Below, in pieces: positions 2,287 through 20,149 of a stretch of DNA of 20,149 nt (position 1 is the first letter of the stretch; every line of letters starts with the position of its first letter). Both the position numbers and the translations under genes were made by a program. The stretch comes from a virus: positions 1 through 20,149 of the IMG/VR virus record IMGVR_UViG_3300028027_000300. One strand, written 5' to 3'. The notes beneath the pieces were generated by a model. It was not told the DNA's origin and did not search any database. It worked only from the letters and a program-made list of their open reading frames with translations.

Positions 2287-5200
2287 TTATCTCCTTCCAA
2301 TAAAAGCATTAACCAATAAATTACGCATACCAAATGCTTGCGTTCCACTGAAGTTATTGATTTGAGTATTTGTGTTTAAGGTAATTGTTTGCGTTCCTGT
2401 AGATGGGGCAGTGTACAAACCTTTAATTGATTGTGTAAAGTTTTGTGATGATTGGATTTGGCTCCAAGGTAAAGAATAGCCATTAAAAACCAATGTTCCA
2501 TTACAGAAAATTTGCGGTGTCAAAACCCAAGGTTGATTTGCTTCTGCTTCAACTCGATAATAGTATGTGCAATCAATCAAAATCTGATCGCCTGCATTTG
2601 CATAAATATAAGATGTTGCAAAGGTATCATCTACAGTAACAATAATAGAACCAGATGCAAACCTTTGGAAGCCGTTAGAACCCGCAAATGATGAAGATGT
2701 GATAGCCTCATTTGCAACTTTCAATGTAGTGATTTGTGCCGTGCCAATCAGGGCTGTTGTGATGGCGGCATTTTGAATATATGCCGTGCCAATTGCAGCC
2801 GCGCCAATGTAGGTTGAAACATTTGCGGATGTGATTGGATTGGCAGATCGAACAATACTATTGTCCAGTCCCGGAACAGTAACAGCACCACCTCCTGCGC
2901 CCGACAATGTGCCATTAGAGTTAATAGAAATATTGTTATTTAACCAACCTGATGCAGGCGTAATATTCCCAAAGTTCAAGGGCGTTCCATTGCCCAAGAT
3001 AACATTGCCAGAACCATCTTTTAATGTCAGATTATTTGAGTTAATGTTAGCCGGGAAAACAACAGTTCCGTTCAGCGTAATTGCTGAACCGTTATATGTG
3101 ATGTTATTGCTTGCATTACCAACTGCAAATTGACCGTTGGAATAAATAACAGCACCCGAACCCGTCATTGTTGTGCCGCTTAAATTTGCAGTATTAGATT
3201 GAATTGTTCCAGAAACAGTTAAATTACCTGTGTTTGTGCTAATAGCAGAAAGGCTACCAACTTTCAATGCAGACAAATACGGCACATTCCAAACTGTTAC
3301 ACCTGTTGCAGGGTTATAAATGCCATCTGACTGATAAACAGACTCTCCTGCACCAATTACTGGTGGAGTATCTTGCCAAACAGTATCCCCTCCCCAAGAG
3401 CCATTTGGCGGGAATGAACTTGAGCCAGATGTTGTAATTGTTGTAGGCGTTGAAGCCAGTGAAGTTAGCGTTGTTTTGGAATAACAAATTCGTGCAGAAG
3501 CACCTTGATTTCCTGTGGGGCCAGTGCCTCCAGTTGGTCCTGTAGCGCCAGTAGGACCAGTAGGACCGGTAGGACCAGTGGCTCCGTTAGTTCCTGCATA
3601 TCCAGCAGCAACAATACTTGCCAAACTCCAATTAATTGAAGTAGTTGTCGCTGTAGCAGTATCAGAAATATTGACAGAAGCAGCCCACAATGTATATCCC
3701 GCACTTGGGGCAGCAGTAATTGATGTATTCCAGCCAGAAGGCACAGGGGTAAATGAGGAATTGGACCATGTGTAAGTAGAACTACCTGTTGGTCCTGCGG
3801 GAATAGTTATTGCCCATTGATAGACAACTGGCCTTGCAGTTTGCAAACCATTTAAACCATTAGTGCCGTTTGTGCCGTTTGCGCCATTCTGTCCATTTAA
3901 AGTAACAGAAGCAATTGAATAGCCGCTTGTCCAACTAATTGTTGAAGTTACAGTGCCAACAACGGCAACAACAGGTTTGGTTGCTGTCCATAATTGAATT
4001 AATGGAACACCGGGATTCGCAGGAATTGTTGTTGTCCATCCACCACCACCCGTGTAACTTGCATTTGTAGCAGTCGCCCAAGTGTATGTAGACTGCCCAC
4101 TAGGATTGGATGGAGTTGCAGTTGACCATTGGTATAGCGTTGGAGTTGCTGATTGATTTCCATCAGTGCCGGGATTTCCTGTTGCGCCTTGATCAACAAA
4201 AACAAATTGCAAAATTGCAGATGCACCTTGCGAAACAAACCCCAAAGCAGATTTGTACCTAACTGGAACAGTAAGGGTTGCAGGAGATGCACTCATTGCA
4301 CTTGGTGCAGCCCATTGTGCAAATGTTCCACCATCAGTCAATGAACCCATCACCAAACCATTGGTAGTGGTGATATCTGCATAGCCAGTAGTTGATGACC
4401 CGCCAATTCGCCAAGTGTTATCTAAAAAAGAAGCATCACTATCTGATTGTGCAGGAACAAAATCAATTGAACCGCCTGCGGCAGAGCCGTACAGTTGTGA
4501 AATTAAACCAGTGAATGATGGAACAAAGGAAGAGTTCCTTGGTACTTGCATAACCACTGGCGAAAATGTAGCCAAGAAAGTACCAGCAACAGCAGTCACC
4601 GTTGGATTAGGCGACCAACTAAAACTAGTTGATATCGGTGAAAGCGCAGAACCACCTAATTCGTTTGCAACTTTATATGAGAAATAATAAGTGCTAGTTG
4701 GTAAATTAATGTTTGAGAAAACAAGATTTGTAGAAGGTGCAAATGGTTGCGAGTTGGATAATGTTTGAACACTCCAGACTTCCCAATCAGTTGTTGTTGG
4801 ACTGCTGACTGTTGTGTAAAACAAAGTCATTTCAGTTACGCGACCTGTTGAAGGAACTAAACAAACAACATCGAAATGCGGAATAGTTGCAGTAGTGTTT
4901 ATATTGGCAACTGTTGGCGCTGTCAGATTGCTAAAGAAATTAGGGTTTGACAGGTTGCTATTTGGTGAAGGCGAAAACTCAGTGATGTCTTTGTCATCAT
5001 AAACTTGCGCGTTGTATTCGTTTAGTTCTAGAGCGGCCCCCAAGTTTCCATCAGGCAATGAAATCTCAGAAACTTTCATTACCCTAAATAACTTATCGTC
5101 CCAACCATAGGCAGAATTGGTTACGCTAATTACATCTCCAGCATCGACTTGAATGCCGTTGTAGGTGGTAGAAAAATTGACAATTAAGTCTTCCCTAGCT

Positions 5201-6432
5201 TGCTCAAGCATTCTGTTAGCAAGGTACTGCGCTTGCACAGAATCATTGACCATACTTAGATCAACGGTGTACTTGTTAACTGGCTCATTAGCAAACAACA
5301 ATTCTTCAGGCGTGTTTAGATAAACATAATCTGATTGGTCACGGTTTAGCTTGCTTGGGAATTGCGCTTGAATTTGGTTAATGCTTGCAGAAATGTCAAA
5401 AGCACTAACTCGAATTTCACCAATAATATTTGAGTCATCAAAATAGAAATTAGTGGCTTGAGCTTTATTAATAACAATTGCCCATTTACCCTTGGTAGCG
5501 TTGTATTGATTCCAAGAATCACAAGCCATCATAATTTGGTCTAGATTAGACAATACATTTTGCCCTGTGTCCAAAACGCCATTAATTCGATAACGAGGCT
5601 GTGTGGCACTACCACCGGCAGCAGGGGTGTAAGTAATCAGTTCATCAGAATAAGTGTTTAGGGCTGTGGCTGTATCAGCGTCAACAATGGTCGCATCCAT
5701 AGCACAACCATATTTCTGATTTGTAATGTAGTCGTACCAAACATCTCCGGGCTTTGCAACACCTTGATTGTTCAAATAATGAGATGCTCTAAATGTCACA
5801 GTTTGCATCTGAGTTGTGCCAGCATCCCTGTTATAGATCATCTTGACAATTGCAAACGCCAAACCATTCATTTGACGGCCCGTAGAAGGCCATCTTTGTG
5901 CTTCGGCTATGTCACTACCACCCATCACAGAATTAGGCAACGCAGAGCCGTTTAAGGCCGTTATAACGCCTGCTTCATTTGATCTGTATAGATGAATGTA
6001 AAGATTGCCAGAAATCTTAGTTTGAACATTGCCTGCGCCATCAGTTAAGCTGACAACTTTGGCTGTATCTGATCCATCAAATCCAATGGTTTGATCCTGC
6101 CAGTACATTTTTGTCGTATCAAAAGAGAATTGACCATTTGGGCTAATCTGAGAAATAGCCAAAACATAGTACATAGTCTTTTGATCTGTTGACAAAACAG
6201 CATCAACAAATGTGCCTCCCAAATAAGCGTCACCATAAACAATTGGCAAGCTATTGGTGGTGGCTGGGGGAACTTGTTGGCGAACTCCATTGTCAATACT
6301 TTGATTAGCACCAGAAGAACCAAATGCTCTCGAAATAACCATCGATAAAGCAAAGTTAACAGCAAACACAGTTGCCGCATAAGCAAAAGTTCCTGCGGCA
6401 AAATATGCCGCTGCAATCATTGTTGCAACCAT
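2287..6432 (-). CDS. TipJ-like central tail tip / host specificity protein
   Basis: 1381 aa, the largest gene here, comparable with lambda gpJ (about 1130 aa) plus extra C-terminal repeats. Residues 1-38 are strongly hydrophobic (AAAYFAAGTFAYAATVFAV), a feature of many TipJ-type proteins. NSLPIVYGDAYLGG at about 60-73 is the typical entry to the tip domain. Residues about 345-450 (INQIQAQFPSKLN, then NRMLEQAREDLIVNFSTTYNG, DAGDVISVTN) match the putative tail protein region of gpJ relatives (PF13550-like). A fibronectin-III-like segment lies near 500-610. Three collagen-like Gly-X-Y hinges near 747-758, 844-862 and 945-975 bound repeated domains of about 100 aa. The beta-rich spike with KVGSLSAISTNTGNLTVSGT starts near 1054, and a separate C-terminal domain (about 1260-1381) probably binds the host. 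AGGGAA precedes the ATG. It overlaps nothing but sits only 2 bases after the acetyltransferase stop. Confidence 0.88.
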   Translation of the reverse strand: MVATMIAAAYFAAGTFAYAATVFAVNFALSMVISRAFGSSGANQSIDNGVRQQVPPATTNSLPIVYGDAYLGGTFVDAVLSTDQKTMYYVLAISQISPNGQFSFDTTKMYWQDQTIGFDGSDTAKVVSLTDGAGNVQTKISGNLYIHLYRSNEAGVITALNGSALPNSVMGGSDIAEAQRWPSTGRQMNGLAFAIVKMIYNRDAGTTQMQTVTFRASHYLNNQGVAKPGDVWYDYITNQKYGCAMDATIVDADTATALNTYSDELITYTPAAGGSATQPRYRINGVLDTGQNVLSNLDQIMMACDSWNQYNATKGKWAIVINKAQATNFYFDDSNIIGEIRVSAFDISASINQIQAQFPSKLNRDQSDYVYLNTPEELLFANEPVNKYTVDLSMVNDSVQAQYLANRMLEQAREDLIVNFSTTYNGIQVDAGDVISVTNSAYGWDDKLFRVMKVSEISLPDGNLGAALELNEYNAQVYDDKDITEFSPSPNSNLSNPNFFSNLTAPTVANINTTATIPHFDVVCLVPSTGRVTEMTLFYTTVSSPTTTDWEVWSVQTLSNSQPFAPSTNLVFSNINLPTSTYYFSYKVANELGGSALSPISTSFSWSPNPTVTAVAGTFLATFSPVVMQVPRNSSFVPSFTGLISQLYGSAAGGSIDFVPAQSDSDASFLDNTWRIGGSSTTGYADITTTNGLVMGSLTDGGTFAQWAAPSAMSASPATLTVPVRYKSALGFVSQGASAILQFVFVDQGATGNPGTDGNQSATPTLYQWSTATPSNPSGQSTYTWATATNASYTGGGGWTTTIPANPGVPLIQLWTATKPVVAVVGTVTSTISWTSGYSIASVTLNGQNGANGTNGTNGLNGLQTARPVVYQWAITIPAGPTGSSTYTWSNSSFTPVPSGWNTSITAAPSAGYTLWAASVNISDTATATTTSINWSLASIVAAGYAGTNGATGPTGPTGPTGATGPTGGTGPTGNQGASARICYSKTTLTSLASTPTTITTSGSSSFPPNGSWGGDTVWQDTPPVIGAGESVYQSDGIYNPATGVTVWNVPYLSALKVGSLSAISTNTGNLTVSGTIQSNTANLSGTTMTGSGAVIYSNGQFAVGNASNNITYNGSAITLNGTVVFPANINSNNLTLKDGSGNVILGNGTPLNFGNITPASGWLNNNISINSNGTLSGAGGGAVTVPGLDNSIVRSANPITSANVSTYIGAAAIGTAYIQNAAITTALIGTAQITTLKVANEAITSSSFAGSNGFQRFASGSIIVTVDDTFATSYIYANAGDQILIDCTYYYRVEAEANQPWVLTPQIFCNGTLVFNGYSLPWSQIQSSQNFTQSIKGLYTAPSTGTQTITLNTNTQINNFSGTQAFGMRNLLVNAFIGRR
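3512..4190 (-). repeat. Collagen-hinged tandem repeat modules within tail tip gene
   Basis: Within the tip protein a unit of about 100 aa recurs. A Gly-X-Y run is followed by (T/V)-x-YQW, about 15 residues later STYTW, then GW-(N/T)-T-x-I-x-A-x-P, an LW and a TxSxxW strand. The next Gly-X-Y run follows. Hinge 1 is at about 4160-4190, hinge 2 at 3845-3900 and hinge 3 at 3512-3600. The third hinge is the purest, a run of Gly-Pro/Ala-Thr triplets encoded by near-identical 9-base units. The unit after hinge 3 is divergent and appears to be only a remnant. Confidence 0.65.
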
Positions 6433-14173: not shown

Positions 14174-15187
14174 TCAGGCGCTCATTCGCACACCAGCGAA
14201 TGGGTCACGAACTGAGCTTACCACACGCTTTTCAGCATAGATGGTAACAAAGCCGGGGCTAGTTTGTTCAAACATCTGAATGGACATTTCTTCATTGTCG
14301 CCAATGGTCAAGAAACGGGGCCAGTTAGCCAAATAGATTGGGAATGAAGTAGACAGGTATGGGTTAGGAATCACAGGGAAACCAAACATACGGCCTACAG
14401 CAGCACCATCTTCATCGCCAATTTCCAAGAACAATGGAAGACCTTGCGTGTCTTTCAAACTACGCAGTGAATCAATCATTGATGGACGGATGTACCAAGC
14501 ATTGCCGGGCAAAGACCAGTACTGGCTTGGGAACGCATTAACAACATCAACAATATCGTTATACACAACACCACCGCTTGTTTGTGCAACAGTAGCAATA
14601 GAGTGAATGCCGTTTGTAATTGCAGTGCCACTTGTGCCATAAGCAGAAGCAGAAGCAGAGACATACATGTCCAAACCACGCAAACCTGATGTAGCACCGG
14701 TTGATGTGGTTGTTGAACCAGCTTGATCGCTGTTGATTGCCATCGATGCGCCTTCAACTTGAGCAAACTCAAGCATCAAGTCGTTAACAATGGAGGCTTC
14801 CAAACCATTCACATCTGACATAACAGCAGAACGGATTGGCAATTGAGCAGTAACAACACGAACAGGCAGTTGCCAGATTGATGTGTTGATATTTGGGCTA
14901 CCTGTGTTGTTTTGAACAGGATAACCCCAAGGGTTTGTTTGATATGTCGCGTTACCAGTTTTAGCAACGAACTGCATATCAGAACCAGACGCTGGAACAA
15001 TACGAGCGCCCAATCGGAATGGGTTAGCGTAACGCAGTGCTGCGAAAGCTTCATCAAAAATCACGCGACCACCAACACCAGAACCAGAGCCAGTGATTGC
15101 AGAGGCTTCTTTCAGGTCGATGTTGACTTTGCCGCCCTCAGTAATGGCCTGTTTGATTCCAGAGAGAATTTTTTCGGTGATGGTCAT
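14174..15187 (-). CDS. Second HK97-fold major capsid-type protein (no delta domain)
   Basis: 337 aa. Clearly paralogous to the upstream capsid protein: from residue 27 (EASAITGSG) on, the two align nearly end to end, with about half the positions identical over the first 125 by hand. Shared blocks include FAALR-ANP, KTGNA, TSIWQL, DGLEA/NGLEA, EFAQ-E and the C-terminal EKR...SVRDP-AGVR. The 100-residue N-terminal scaffolding part of the first protein is replaced by only about 26 residues (MTITEKILSGIKQAITEGGK). It could be a vertex (penton) or minor capsid subunit, as T4 gp24 is to gp23, or a mixed shell component. An AGGAAA site precedes it, and an intrinsic terminator stands between the two genes. 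Confidence 0.85.
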   Translation of the reverse strand: MTITEKILSGIKQAITEGGKVNIDLKEASAITGSGSGVGGRVIFDEAFAALRYANPFRLGARIVPASGSDMQFVAKTGNATYQTNPWGYPVQNNTGSPNINTSIWQLPVRVVTAQLPIRSAVMSDVNGLEASIVNDLMLEFAQVEGASMAINSDQAGSTTTSTGATSGLRGLDMYVSASASAYGTSGTAITNGIHSIATVAQTSGGVVYNDIVDVVNAFPSQYWSLPGNAWYIRPSMIDSLRSLKDTQGLPLFLEIGDEDGAAVGRMFGFPVIPNPYLSTSFPIYLANWPRFLTIGDNEEMSIQMFEQTSPGFVTIYAEKRVVSSVRDPFAGVRMSA

Positions 15188-15238: not shown

Positions 15239-15244
15239 GTTTTA

Positions 15245-16588
15245 TCAGGCTGCTGTGCCTGTAGAACGATAGCGAACACCAGCGTTAGGATCACGCACAG
15301 ATGTTGCCAAACGCTTCTCACCGAAGAAGGTGATGTAACCGGGCAATGTCTGGTCGTATCTACGCATAACCATGTTCAGACGGTCGATGATTGTGTGGAA
15401 GCGGCTCCAGTCAGCGAAGTACATTGGATACAAGCTGTTAGTGCCGGCAGAAGCCACAGTAGTTTGTGAAGGAGTATCGCAATACTTGTTCACAACAACA
15501 TCGAAGCCCAACAAGTTGCCAACAATACCGTCAACAGACAAACCTTCATTACGATTGAAGATAGGTGCGCCATTGTCATCTTTCAATGCACGAATAGCAT
15601 TCAACAGGATTGGGCTGATAACGAACTTAGCGCTTTCGGTCCAATATTGTTGCGGGAGGCTATATACGAAATTGACCACATCGGTATAGGTGATGTTGTT
15701 GGCGCCAACAGTATTAGCGTTAGTTGTCAATTGGTCGTATGTTGCCAAGCTGTGCAAGCCGCTGGTAGAACCAGTGCCAGAAGAGCCGAAGGCAGCAGTA
15801 GTGCAAACACCACCAGCATAAGTTGACGCAGCACCAGCGTATTGGTCAAGGCCACGCAATCCGTTGCTTCCACCGTATGGCAAAGAAGTCAAACCTTGGT
15901 CGTTATTTTGCATCATGCTGAGAGCTTCAGCTTGAGCAAATTCAGCCAACATGTCATCAACGACATTGGCTTCCAAACCATCGATGTCATCCAATGCAGC
16001 AGTACGGATTGGGAACTGAACATTCAAGTCTTGCAAAACGAGTTGCCAGATAGAAGTGTCTTCAGTTGTAGCAGCACCGTTGTTCTGAATGCCATAGCCC
16101 CAAGCAGCGCCAGCGTTGCCGGTCTTGACACGGAACTGGTAGCTTGAACCATCGGTAGCAACAGTGCGTGAAACACCGCGCAATGGATTAGCCAAACGCA
16201 GTGCAGCAAACACTGGGTCATAAGCGGTACGACCACCTTGATTGTTACCAGAACCTGTCAAAGCAGAAGCTTCGTTCAGGTAAGCTTGCATTTGTGATTC
16301 GTCAGCAAAAATTTGCAGTTCTTTTTCTACACGGTTGTTACCTTTGTAGAAAGAAGACAGTTGCTCGCGAACGCTGCGGTTCACATCTTGACGAATAGTC
16401 TTGGCAACAGGCTTGTGCAGAGCAGGAGCTTCAATAGAAGACACTTTGGCTTCCAGAGCAGCAACCATTTCGCTGAATTCAGCTTTAACAGCTTCAACAG
16501 CAGCGGGGATTTTGGCCTCAACAGCCGCAACGCTCTCAGCTTGTTTAGCTTCGATAGCGTCCAATTTTTCAATGATTTCTTTTGACAT
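15245..16588 (-). CDS. Major capsid protein, HK97 family, with delta domain
   Basis: 447 aa. Residues 1-55 are an Ala/Glu/Lys coiled coil (EKLDAIEAKQAESVAAVEAK), the scaffolding delta domain, followed by a linker and then the HK97 fold from about residue 107 (EASALTGSG). FAALRLANPLRG, KTGNAGAAWGYG, TSIWQL and the C-terminal GEKRLATSVRDPNAGVRY are conserved features of this capsid family. The prohead protease encoded next door would be expected to remove the delta domain before expansion, cutting near residue 100-107, an inference. Protease and capsid genes are 2 bases apart. The gene is followed by a strong terminator, consistent with high expression. Confidence 0.93.
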   Translation of the reverse strand: MSKEIIEKLDAIEAKQAESVAAVEAKIPAAVEAVKAEFSEMVAALEAKVSSIEAPALHKPVAKTIRQDVNRSVREQLSSFYKGNNRVEKELQIFADESQMQAYLNEASALTGSGNNQGGRTAYDPVFAALRLANPLRGVSRTVATDGSSYQFRVKTGNAGAAWGYGIQNNGAATTEDTSIWQLVLQDLNVQFPIRTAALDDIDGLEANVVDDMLAEFAQAEALSMMQNNDQGLTSLPYGGSNGLRGLDQYAGAASTYAGGVCTTAAFGSSGTGSTSGLHSLATYDQLTTNANTVGANNITYTDVVNFVYSLPQQYWTESAKFVISPILLNAIRALKDDNGAPIFNRNEGLSVDGIVGNLLGFDVVVNKYCDTPSQTTVASAGTNSLYPMYFADWSRFHTIIDRLNMVMRRYDQTLPGYITFFGEKRLATSVRDPNAGVRYRSTGTAA

Positions 16589-16590
16589 GA

Positions 16591-17391
16591 TTAACCTTTA
16601 AGTCGTTTGTCTAGGAGTTTAAGAAGTTCGCGTTGCTCAAGAGCAGCGAGAATTTCAGCTTCGGTCGCTTCCGCACCAGAGTCACTCTGTTGAGGCGCAA
16701 TTTCAATTGCTTCAGTTGCAGCATCACGCTGCTCCAGAACTTTCTTGAATGTTGATGCGGCAGCGACCGCATCGCTTTTGGACAACCCAGCATCCCGCAA
16801 GGCTTCTTCCAAAACTTTTAAATCAGCAGAGCCATCAGCGCGGAAATATTCCAGCTTCTTAACTTCTGCTTTAGGATTATTTGGGTACATCACAACGCTA
16901 GTCTCGCGCAAACCACCTTTAGTGATTTGGAAGTAGCCTTTTTCCCAATAGTCATCAGACCCTGCTGGAAAAACTTCGCCACCTTCAGTGACCCACTGAT
17001 ATTCGTCAGCATAAGCGCCAACAGACACGCCACCGAACATGTTTGGTGACTCACACATAACTTGATAAAGGTCTGAACCAACACTGGTGTTCAGGAACAA
17101 GCGACCGCTGGCGCTCATGCCTTCATCATCCATTTCAATGCTTGTCCACTCGCCAACAGGCATAGACTCAGCATTGTGGTTCAAGAACATTGGAAGTGGT
17201 CTGCCAGAAGCGGCAAACTCTTTGGCCCACTCCATAAAGCCTTCAGGCTTATAGAAGAATTTGCGACCATCAGCGCCTTCGCGAGCGCCCCAAGTGGTAA
17301 TGCGAGCTTCAATCTTGCCTGTTGGTTCTCCGCTTGCGGATTTTTCCGTTAGGTTTAACCTTGCTTCGCAGATTAGATTCATTTGCTTCAT
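16591..17391 (-). CDS. Prohead maturation protease (S78 family)
   Basis: 266 aa. The catalytic core follows HK97 gp4 relatives. KIEARITTWG at about residues 26-35 is the first strand. PMFLNHNAESMPVGEW at 67-82 contains the likely catalytic His72. MFGGVSVGAY at 118-127 contains Ser123. RETSVVMYPNNPKAEV at 162-177 matches the E-x-SvV-x-x-PaN-x-A motif. A C-terminal extension of about 80 residues is Glu/Ala-rich and helical and may act as a scaffold-like tail. AGGGG lies 6 nt before the ATG. It cleaves the capsid delta domain and itself during maturation. Confidence 0.9.
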   Translation of the reverse strand: MKQMNLICEARLNLTEKSASGEPTGKIEARITTWGAREGADGRKFFYKPEGFMEWAKEFAASGRPLPMFLNHNAESMPVGEWTSIEMDDEGMSASGRLFLNTSVGSDLYQVMCESPNMFGGVSVGAYADEYQWVTEGGEVFPAGSDDYWEKGYFQITKGGLRETSVVMYPNNPKAEVKKLEYFRADGSADLKVLEEALRDAGLSKSDAVAAASTFKKVLEQRDAATEAIEIAPQQSDSGAEATEAEILAALEQRELLKLLDKRLKG

Positions 17392-17524
17392 TAATAGCCC
17401 CTAAAGCCATAGATTGGTTGTTATCTTGTATTTTAGGGGGTTGCCCTAAAAGTACAGGCAACTGTATTACAGGTTGACGAACCTGTTTCGCTAATGCTAC
17501 CAGATATTTTGAATCAGTTTGCAT
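17309..17524 (-). CDS. Possible small overlapping gene between portal and protease
   Basis: 71 aa (MQTDSKYLVALAKQVRQPVI at the start). The ATG is 6 bases after the portal stop and has an AGGAAAG ribosome site about 12 nt upstream within the last portal codons. The first 44 codons fill an otherwise empty 139-base gap, and the composition (Gln, Pro, Asn, Lys) looks like protein rather than shadow. The last 28 codons overlap the protease in another frame and are basic, which weakens the case. No family is recognised. It may be a real accessory gene or chance. Confidence 0.4.
   Translation of the reverse strand: MQTDSKYLVALAKQVRQPVIQLPVLLGQPPKIQDNNQSMALGAINEANESNLRSKVKPNGKIRKRRTNRQD
17431..17451 (-). 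other. Inverted repeat in portal-protease gap
   Basis: TTTTAGGG and CCCTAAAA are perfectly complementary around a five-base loop (8 bp). No U-run follows, so this is not a standard terminator. A second perfect hairpin (ACAGGTT/AACCTGT, 7 bp, 4-base loop) lies at 17469-17486. Together they could form processing or translation-control structures ahead of the protease start. They also fall inside the possible small ORF. Confidence 0.4.
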
Positions 17525-17530
17525 TATTTA

Positions 17531-18931
17531 TCAAGTCTTTCCTATATTCATTTTCTTCTTTTGGTTTCCACCACCGCCACCAGTATCTTGGGGGCTAGAA
17601 CCAGAAATAGAATCAGCCGGTTTATTAGGTTGGACCAACTCATCGCCACCTTCAATATTAGGCATGCCCATATACTCACGCGCTTCGTTGGGAGTCATAA
17701 TTCCATTGGTCACACCCGCTGTCGCAAAGTTCATTTGGTCAAGTGGTGCGCCCTTCAAGAAGTCGCTGGTGTCAAACTCAACACAAAGTGATGGATAACC
17801 AACAAATAAATGCTGCTTGAGTTTTTCTTGGATGTTTACCAGCATTGGGTACATAGTCCCTTTGTAGAACTCATCCATTTGCGTTTGACTGTTATTAAAC
17901 TTGCCATCAATAATGCCGATCATTTGTGGAGGCACACCAAATAAGCCGCAAATCCTACGCATGGTCTGCATCTTCAGGTTAGCAGCGTCAGCATCTTGCA
18001 AGTTGAGCATTTCCAATGGCGTGTACTTCATGCCTTGGTCCAGCAGCATGCCTTGACCGGGCTTAGATGGGTCAGATTGGCGTGAGCCAACCATATTGCT
18101 CCAAGCTTCTTTTAAACGGGCAGCAATTTCTTTATATTTGGCATCAGGTACAACAGCATCGGTCGAGAACATGCCAGATGGCTTTGCACCGTTCTGCATC
18201 ACATAGTTTGCGTACAGGTCAATGTCTTGGTCTAAGGCTACCAACTCAGCAGCCAAGATACCTTTGTTGAAACCGGCAGAACCTTGCCACGCCATCTCTT
18301 TGCAGTGCATGATTTGATGCGCTTTGAGTGGCTGGTCACGGCTAAAGCCGTATGCCGGTGTAGACAGGCGATACGATGGATATCGTGCAGGATTGATTGT
18401 TACAGCAATCAATGTGCTATCCATAATATACATTTCCAGAGGAGTCTCGGTTGCAGACTCTTGGTCTTTTCGCCACCACAGAGTAAACGCTTCACCAGCA
18501 AGCTCATACCACATGAGCCACTGATACCAGAACTCATATTTGCTCTGGAAGTTATTAGGATTATTCAAAAGCTTGGCAACTTGCTTGGCTTTTGTCTTAT
18601 CTCGTGTGCCAACTGACGGGTCTTTAATGGCATTTACATATTCGCCATCTTCGCCTTCGCAACAAATGTTAATTGGCAACTGTGCAAGCGCCCTAGCTTT
18701 AATCGCAATACAGGACATCACTGTGCTGTTGCGTGTAAGCATTGACATGTCAACAGGGCGACCAGCATTGGTCGTGCTGGCTGTCGTGACATAGAGTATC
18801 TGGGTATTTACATTTGGCTGCTGTTTATTGCTTTGGTAAACAATATTGTTGCCCAATGCAGTCTGACCAAACAACGAGTTGCTCTCATTATTTGTTGCTT
18901 TTTTACTGCTAAAAACATCCAAAATGCCCAT
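17531..18931 (-). CDS. Portal protein, HK97 family
   Basis: 466 aa, typical length for the HK97 portal family (PF04860). MLTRNSTVMSCIAIKARALA at about residues 64-83 is the V-x-aCI-x-x-iA-x-x-iA-x-lP helix. LLNNPNNFQSKYEFW at 121-135 and MWYELAGEAFTLWWR at 140-154 match the P-N-x-x-x-x-x-x-F and L-x-GNAy blocks. RRICGLFGVPPQMIG at 325-339 is the conserved IA-x-x-F-gVPp-x-x-lg motif. GIMTPNEAREYMGMP at 410-424 is the usual C-terminal N-G-x-x-x-x-NE-x-R-x-x-x-g-x-p. The C-terminus is Gly-rich, then Lys-rich. An AGGAGA ribosome site precedes the ATG. Twelve copies form the DNA channel. Confidence 0.94.
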   Translation of the reverse strand: MGILDVFSSKKATNNESNSLFGQTALGNNIVYQSNKQQPNVNTQILYVTTASTTNAGRPVDMSMLTRNSTVMSCIAIKARALAQLPINICCEGEDGEYVNAIKDPSVGTRDKTKAKQVAKLLNNPNNFQSKYEFWYQWLMWYELAGEAFTLWWRKDQESATETPLEMYIMDSTLIAVTINPARYPSYRLSTPAYGFSRDQPLKAHQIMHCKEMAWQGSAGFNKGILAAELVALDQDIDLYANYVMQNGAKPSGMFSTDAVVPDAKYKEIAARLKEAWSNMVGSRQSDPSKPGQGMLLDQGMKYTPLEMLNLQDADAANLKMQTMRRICGLFGVPPQMIGIIDGKFNNSQTQMDEFYKGTMYPMLVNIQEKLKQHLFVGYPSLCVEFDTSDFLKGAPLDQMNFATAGVTNGIMTPNEAREYMGMPNIEGGDELVQPNKPADSISGSSPQDTGGGGGNQKKKMNIGKT

Positions 18932-18955
18932 GATTTTCTCCTAATTCATTACATT

Positions 18956-19936
18956 CTACCAATCTAATGACCTGAAGCCAAATGATTCCGTAACGAAAAC
19001 ATTATCTAGGTGGCAGTGTAACGCCATAATCATAGAAATAATACCGTCAACTTTGGCAGATGGGTCTGCCTCATTCTTACGCACCTTCACATTGCCGTTG
19101 ACATCGGTATAAACCTCGCAGTTTCCAAGCTGCCACCCAACAAATGGGTTGCCATCGTGCTTTATGGCTTTCTTGAGAATAAGCTGCTCAGTCGTTTTAG
19201 ATGGGTTGGAAAGTACAGCCATACCTTGACCCACCTTTTTGACAGGTAGCCCGTGGCTGTATAAGTTTGCAACCAAAGCAGCAGCGTTGTAAGGGTCGAA
19301 CGCAATTTCTTTAACATCATGGAAAATACACTCCGCTTTAATGTAGGTTTCAATCTCATTCAGGTCTGTCACATTGCCTTGAGTAAGCTTAAGGATGCCT
19401 GAAGCTTGGGCTTGAAGGTAGATTGGCTTGTAATGGTTTGGCACAAAATCCATCGACTCTTCTGGCAGGAAGAATTGGAACTTAGCATAAAAGTCTTCTT
19501 CGCCATACCTGTGCAAAGTGCAGACAGCGTTCAAGTCACGGCTGTGCGCCAAGTCAAATGCAATAAATGTTGACTCAGGTTTATCCTGTGGTTTTTCAGC
19601 AACAGACTCATCCCAGAAGCGCCTGTCAACCCATGCGGCATTGGCAGATACATAAATGTTTAATTGTTTGCACAGGAACTCATTCAAGCTGGCTGGCTTG
19701 GCAGAAGCCTCTTCAGCCATGTGCCGGATATGGTCAACAGTAACTGAAATGCCAAGCATAGGGTTTGCCTTACCCCAGACATCAGGATTGCTCCATTCAT
19801 CTCCGGGATCGATGCTGTACAGCAGTCCAAACCACCTAAAGTTGTCAGCAGCAGCGCCACGAAGCACAGACCGGAAATGATTCAAATCTTCGTAAAACTT
19901 TGTATCTTTGGTAAAACTTGCAGTTGTCAGATACAT
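18956..19936 (-). CDS. terL: Terminase large subunit, C-terminal (nuclease) part, 5' end displaced
   Basis: The minus frame is open to 20011, but only the part from about 19936 down (MYLTTASFTKDTKFYEDL) looks like terminase. TTAS is the usual motif after the ATPase domain, and YSIDPGDEWSNPDVWGKANP follows as in HK97 TerL (PF03354). The RNase-H-like nuclease acids can be seen, numbered from the ATG at 20011: Asp153 (IAFDLAHSRDLNAV), Asp239 (EIAFDPYNAA) and Asp322 (AKVDGIISMIMAL). The ATPase half with Walker A and B is missing from this strand. The first 25 or so residues of the open frame are the antisense of plus-strand terminase and should not be taken as real. Function when intact: ATP-driven DNA packaging and cutting. 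Confidence 0.9.
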   Translation of the reverse strand: MYLTTASFTKDTKFYEDLNHFRSVLRGAAADNFRWFGLLYSIDPGDEWSNPDVWGKANPMLGISVTVDHIRHMAEEASAKPASLNEFLCKQLNIYVSANAAWVDRRFWDESVAEKPQDKPESTFIAFDLAHSRDLNAVCTLHRYGEEDFYAKFQFFLPEESMDFVPNHYKPIYLQAQASGILKLTQGNVTDLNEIETYIKAECIFHDVKEIAFDPYNAAALVANLYSHGLPVKKVGQGMAVLSNPSKTTEQLILKKAIKHDGNPFVGWQLGNCEVYTDVNGNVKVRKNEADPSAKVDGIISMIMALHCHLDNVFVTESFGFRSLDW

Positions 19937-19940
19937 CCGC
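19925..19940. other. Inverted junction inside terL
   Basis: Left of this zone the minus strand reads as terminase C-terminal part; right of it the plus strand reads as terminase N-terminal part. The central ATPase section, including Walker B, is absent. Both readings remain plausible through about 16 bases, so the break cannot be placed exactly. A chimeric inverted join in amplification or assembly is the simplest cause; a real inversion is possible. Confidence 0.8.
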
Positions 19941-20149
19941 CATGTGAAGGGGCCAGAGGCTGGCAAAGCTATTGAGTTGGCGCCATTCCAGATTTTGCTA
20001 CTGGCTGGCATCTACGGCTTTCGGGCAAAGAATGATGTGAACACCCGCTGGGTGACAGATGTGATTTTGTTCGTGCCGCGCAAGTCAGGCAAGACAACAT
20101 TGGCCTCCATCATTGCCCTGTACGAATTGCAGTTTGGCGATGCTGGCGC
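19932..20149 (+). CDS. terL: Terminase large subunit, N-terminal ATPase fragment, opposite strand
   Basis: In the plus frame starting at 19932 the sequence reads YIRHVKGPEAGKAIELAPFQ, then a hydrophobic helix LLLAGIYGF and VILFVPRKSGKTTLASIIAL up to the window end. This is the N-terminal pattern of HK97-type TerL: h-x-kG-x-x-aG-x-x-x-x-L-x-p-Q, then iyG(w/f), then the R-K-x-GKT/S Walker A loop (PRKSGKTTLA at about 20077-20106). The true start and the rest of the ATPase lie outside or are lost. It probably comes from the same terminase gene as the minus-strand part, since exactly the N-terminal section is missing there. Confidence 0.85.

Follow-up and report, generated by a model that had tools for sequence, protein, structure and literature searches.

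A terminase gene split head-to-head at the end of a viral contig is very probably an inverted chimera

INTRODUCTION

The terminase gene (terL) at the end of the viral contig studied here lies in two pieces on opposite strands, which raises the question of whether the virus carries such a gene or whether the contig end was joined wrongly. Herein, the window, meaning the whole stretch of DNA analyzed, is the entire IMG/VR virus record IMGVR_UViG_3300028027_000300 (20,149 bases, classed as linear), and its right edge is therefore the edge of the contig. All of its genes with family matches are on the minus strand, namely tail genes, two capsid-like genes, a protease gene, a portal gene, and then the 3' part of terL.

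RESULTS

Two pieces of terL lie on opposite strands at the contig end

The minus-strand reading frame 18956-20011 contained the motifs TTAS, FDLAHSRD, FDPYN, and KVDG and matched the Pfam family TerL_nuclease (PF20441, 8e-41). The plus-strand frame 19908-20147 contained LAPFQ and PRKSGKTT. It matched profile positions 1-49 of TerL_ATPase (PF03354) weakly (E value 1.3e-4), as a hit just under the curated cut-off, and it also matched PHROG terminase families, down to 4.5e-14. An earlier note on this DNA had claimed from these motifs that terL is split head-to-head, and this description holds: the minus strand carries the nuclease half as far as ~19940, and the Walker A end begins on the plus strand at ~19937. 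The pieces and their join were as follows, as read against L002 (IMGVR_UViG_3300010374_000116, 5,983 bases), which is 99.6% identical to the window and the nearest of the 80 related loci described below.

18956..19940, minus strand: 3' part of terL, codons ~233-559, covering the nuclease domain and the last part of the ATPase domain (PF20441, 8e-41; matches L002 2269-1285 without mismatch)
19937..19940, no strand assigned: putative chimeric join with four shared bases, CCGC (column-by-column comparison with both L002 segments)
19937..20149, plus strand: inverted segment with Walker A (VPRKSGKTT), corresponding to terL codons ~64-133 and running to the contig end (100% identical to L002 778-990)
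19940..20011, minus strand: 24 N-terminal codons (MPASS...GPFTW), apparently spurious, in the open reading frame 18956-20011 of 351 aa (comparison with the intact L002 frame)

The minus-strand piece was colinear with the remainder of the contig. The plus-strand piece, in contrast, appears to be misplaced relative to it, as had been suspected of the last ~200 bases, because 19937-20149 corresponds to L002 778-990 on the plus strand. Each apparent N-terminus, MPASSKIWNGANSIALPASGPFTW for the minus frame and LVKLAVVRYI for the plus frame, reads as a false antisense translation of the other segment. A second terL inside the window was considered and rejected, since the terL of L002 matched no further stretch of it.

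Two other features of the window were observed. Phage_capsid (PF05065) was matched by both of the neighboring minus-strand genes 14174-15187 and 15245-16588, which shared 42% identity across 341 aligned columns and are read as a major capsid gene duplicated in tandem; phage P19250A has two similarly sized genes at the equivalent position. Collagen-like G-x-y repeats (GATGPTGPTGPTG...) were located at 3502-3603, inside the large tail protein gene 2287-6432 on the minus strand.

A near-identical record carries both pieces in one intact gene

Alignment to close relatives had been named in the earlier note as a check, and L002 supplied the answer. It is nearly the same virus as the window, and it holds both window pieces in a single intact terL of 559 codons (590-2269), in normal order and orientation. 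The pair of domains PF03354 and PF20441 in one reading frame, by which a phage TerL is recognized, was present in L002, whereas no frame of the window contained both. Window 15242-19940 corresponded to L002 5983-1285 (minus strand), a stretch of 4.7 kb that contained 20 differences, and window 19937-20149 corresponded to L002 778-990 (plus strand) with 100% identity across 213 bases. Absent from the window were L002 991-1284, that is, codons ~134-232 with the MIDEA Walker B region in the middle of the ATPase, and all sequence upstream of L002 778 (terL codons 1-63 and L002 1-777). A missing stretch of 300-400 bases had been predicted; the gap exists, but at 294 bases it is slightly smaller.

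According to the column comparison, the match of the left partner to L002 ends at 19940 and that of the right partner begins at 19937, which places the join at the top of the range 19925-19940 that had been estimated from the window itself. The overlap consists of the four exact bases CCGC and can be extended to CCGC[A/C]ATG, eight bases with one mismatch. An 8-base overlap at 19937-19944 reported by BLAST was dropped in favor of the four exact bases. When inverted joins were placed at random in L002, 1.8% had four or more shared bases. In the intact L002 gene, the two partners of the join lie ~504 bases apart and on one strand; in the window they are joined in opposite orientation. The junction sequence was absent from all other viral_contigs and from the bacterial/archaeal genome_contigs scanned, an absence that is incomplete because records very near the window may fall outside the scan.

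The differences between the window and L002 were themselves clustered, as 19 of the 20 were located in a 268-base patch of the portal gene (17621-17888), with one residue changed in the portal protein. Local recombination and a mixed-strain assembly patch are candidate readings of this patch.

Related loci carry terL on one strand

The 80 related loci were the matches of the plus-strand terL piece in a viral contig scan, and the continuity and strand of terL were judged by protein comparison. In 75 of the 80 loci, terL was one continuous match on a single strand. The other five were also one-stranded, four of them reaching a contig end and one (L012) stopping early at residue 533. A head-to-head split, whose recurrence in related genomes the earlier note had named as part of what would refute a chimera, was looked for and found in 0/80 relatives; terL lay on both strands only in the window's own copy. 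Other inverted joins of at least 80 bases were likewise absent from the 80 relatives. Three records were fetched through the intact breakpoint sequence, of which two were already among the 80 and one (L083) was new, and in each terL was whole and on one strand. In ten of the larger relatives, the structural genes aligned with those in the remainder of the window and followed one another in an unchanged order.

A more distant comparison was provided by Methylophilaceae phage P19250A (KX815270; TerL APC43887.1), in which one terminase coding sequence of 1659 bases is followed by the portal gene. Its gene order is similar to that of the window (terL, portal, then structural and tail genes), and across the 32% of the query that was matched, its terL DNA shows 63.6% identity. 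Unlike that of the window, the terL of P19250A is intact on a single strand.

Several observations concerned the ends and flanks of the related contigs. The first ~96 bases of L016 (2-97) were an 88.5% copy of L016 3824-3919 in the same orientation, probably a direct-type chimera or a misassembly at the contig end. Contigs of varied lengths, including L004, L006, L008, L009, L014, L016, L018, and L019 among others, started or ended ~570-780 bases upstream of the terL match, and these common endpoints could reflect either a fixed end of the genome or a shared break or linearization point. In L081, tandem repeats with a period of ~80 were found upstream of terL (1143-1577).

DISCUSSION

The end of the window is read here as an inverted chimera that formed in vitro and then entered the assembly, a reading to which we assign a probability of about 93%, because the near-identical L002 and ~75 relatives have terL whole on one strand. 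The real virus would then carry a single, ordinary terL that is codirectional with its structural genes. An inverted chimera arising by multiple displacement amplification (MDA) or in assembly had already been proposed, and the short shared bases, the distance of ~0.5 kb, the opposite strands, the terminal position, and the intact gene in relatives all agree with it. Against the chimera, four shared bases are modest, and the junction had to reach a frequency among the reads that sufficed for assembly.

The join, the bases shared at it, and an intact terL in relatives are observed; we infer an in vitro origin of the join and a polymerase step, which might have run as follows. In strand-displacement amplification, or where a polymerase switches template in a similar way, the growing 3' end would have copied the minus sense of terL up to the equivalent of L002 1285. 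Once freed, this end would have re-annealed through CCGC to a displaced same-sense strand at L002 778-781, ~0.5 kb further along, and would then have been extended on that strand, in the opposite sense, as far as the template reached. In the product, the nuclease half and the Walker A end would be joined on opposite strands. In the MDA chimera model, the freed 3' end is said to copy the displaced 5' flap and to stop at the flap end, which is expected before the point already reached. The copied piece ends at L002 990, inside the allowed interval 778-1284, which would fit the flap model, although it could also be an assembler stop.

Within the figure given above, a join made by the assembler or in library preparation (end-repair fold-back or PCR template switching) without MDA is a possible but less favored origin. 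The apparent direct-orientation misjoin at the start of L016 means that faulty contig ends do occur in the collection. However, with its short shared bases and a separation of ~0.5 kb the join is a good fit to published MDA joins, and from the assembled sequence alone amplification, library preparation, and assembler origins cannot be told apart.

A real inversion in a minority of genomes, in which a fold-back template switch in the cell during phage replication yields defective genomes beside intact ones, is very unlikely. The same chemistry of short shared bases, opposite strands, and closeness could operate in vivo, and the sequence by itself would look alike in both cases. However, such an inversion breaks an essential packaging gene, is found in no relative, and is located at the contig end, as artefacts are. 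A phage subpopulation with an inverted, packaging-defective genome end produced by fold-back replication, akin to defective interfering genomes, is likewise very unlikely. The chance of a fixed functional arrangement, in which terL is split or inverted or a further intact copy is present elsewhere in the genome, is close to negligible: the record is a fragment of a genome of probably ~38 kb, judged from P19250A (38,749 bases), which leaves space for a second copy, but L002 has a single intact gene at exactly that place, which bears out the low rank given to this option in the earlier note, and both apparent N-termini read as antisense of the other segment.

The chimeric reading matters for annotation, and its importance is limited to that. 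Gene prediction on this contig would yield a TerL of 351 aa whose 24 N-terminal residues are false, together with a second, false partial TerL. Positions 19937-20149 should be trimmed or flagged; otherwise TerL trees, gene counts, and end-of-genome inferences drawn from this contig would be wrong. The window end thus appears to be an ordinary contig-end artefact rather than a real feature, and a close relative can suffice to diagnose such a join without reads.

Among published MDA chimeras, 85% were inverted, partners were mostly less than 10 kb apart, and priming was by short complementary stretches, with 2-21 bases shared in most of the joins (PMC1855051); a larger MDA read set showed a distance peak at ~250-300 and an overlap peak at 6 (PMC4595205). 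The single-read chimeras of Lasken and Stockwell (2007, PMC1855051) differ from the window in that its join is known from an assembled contig. In form, the join resembles their inverted chimeras, with partners from one locus on opposite strands relative to L002, ~504 bases apart and so within 10 kb, a few shared bases (CCGC), and the intervening sequence missing, and on this comparison it would fit the MDA-chimera type.
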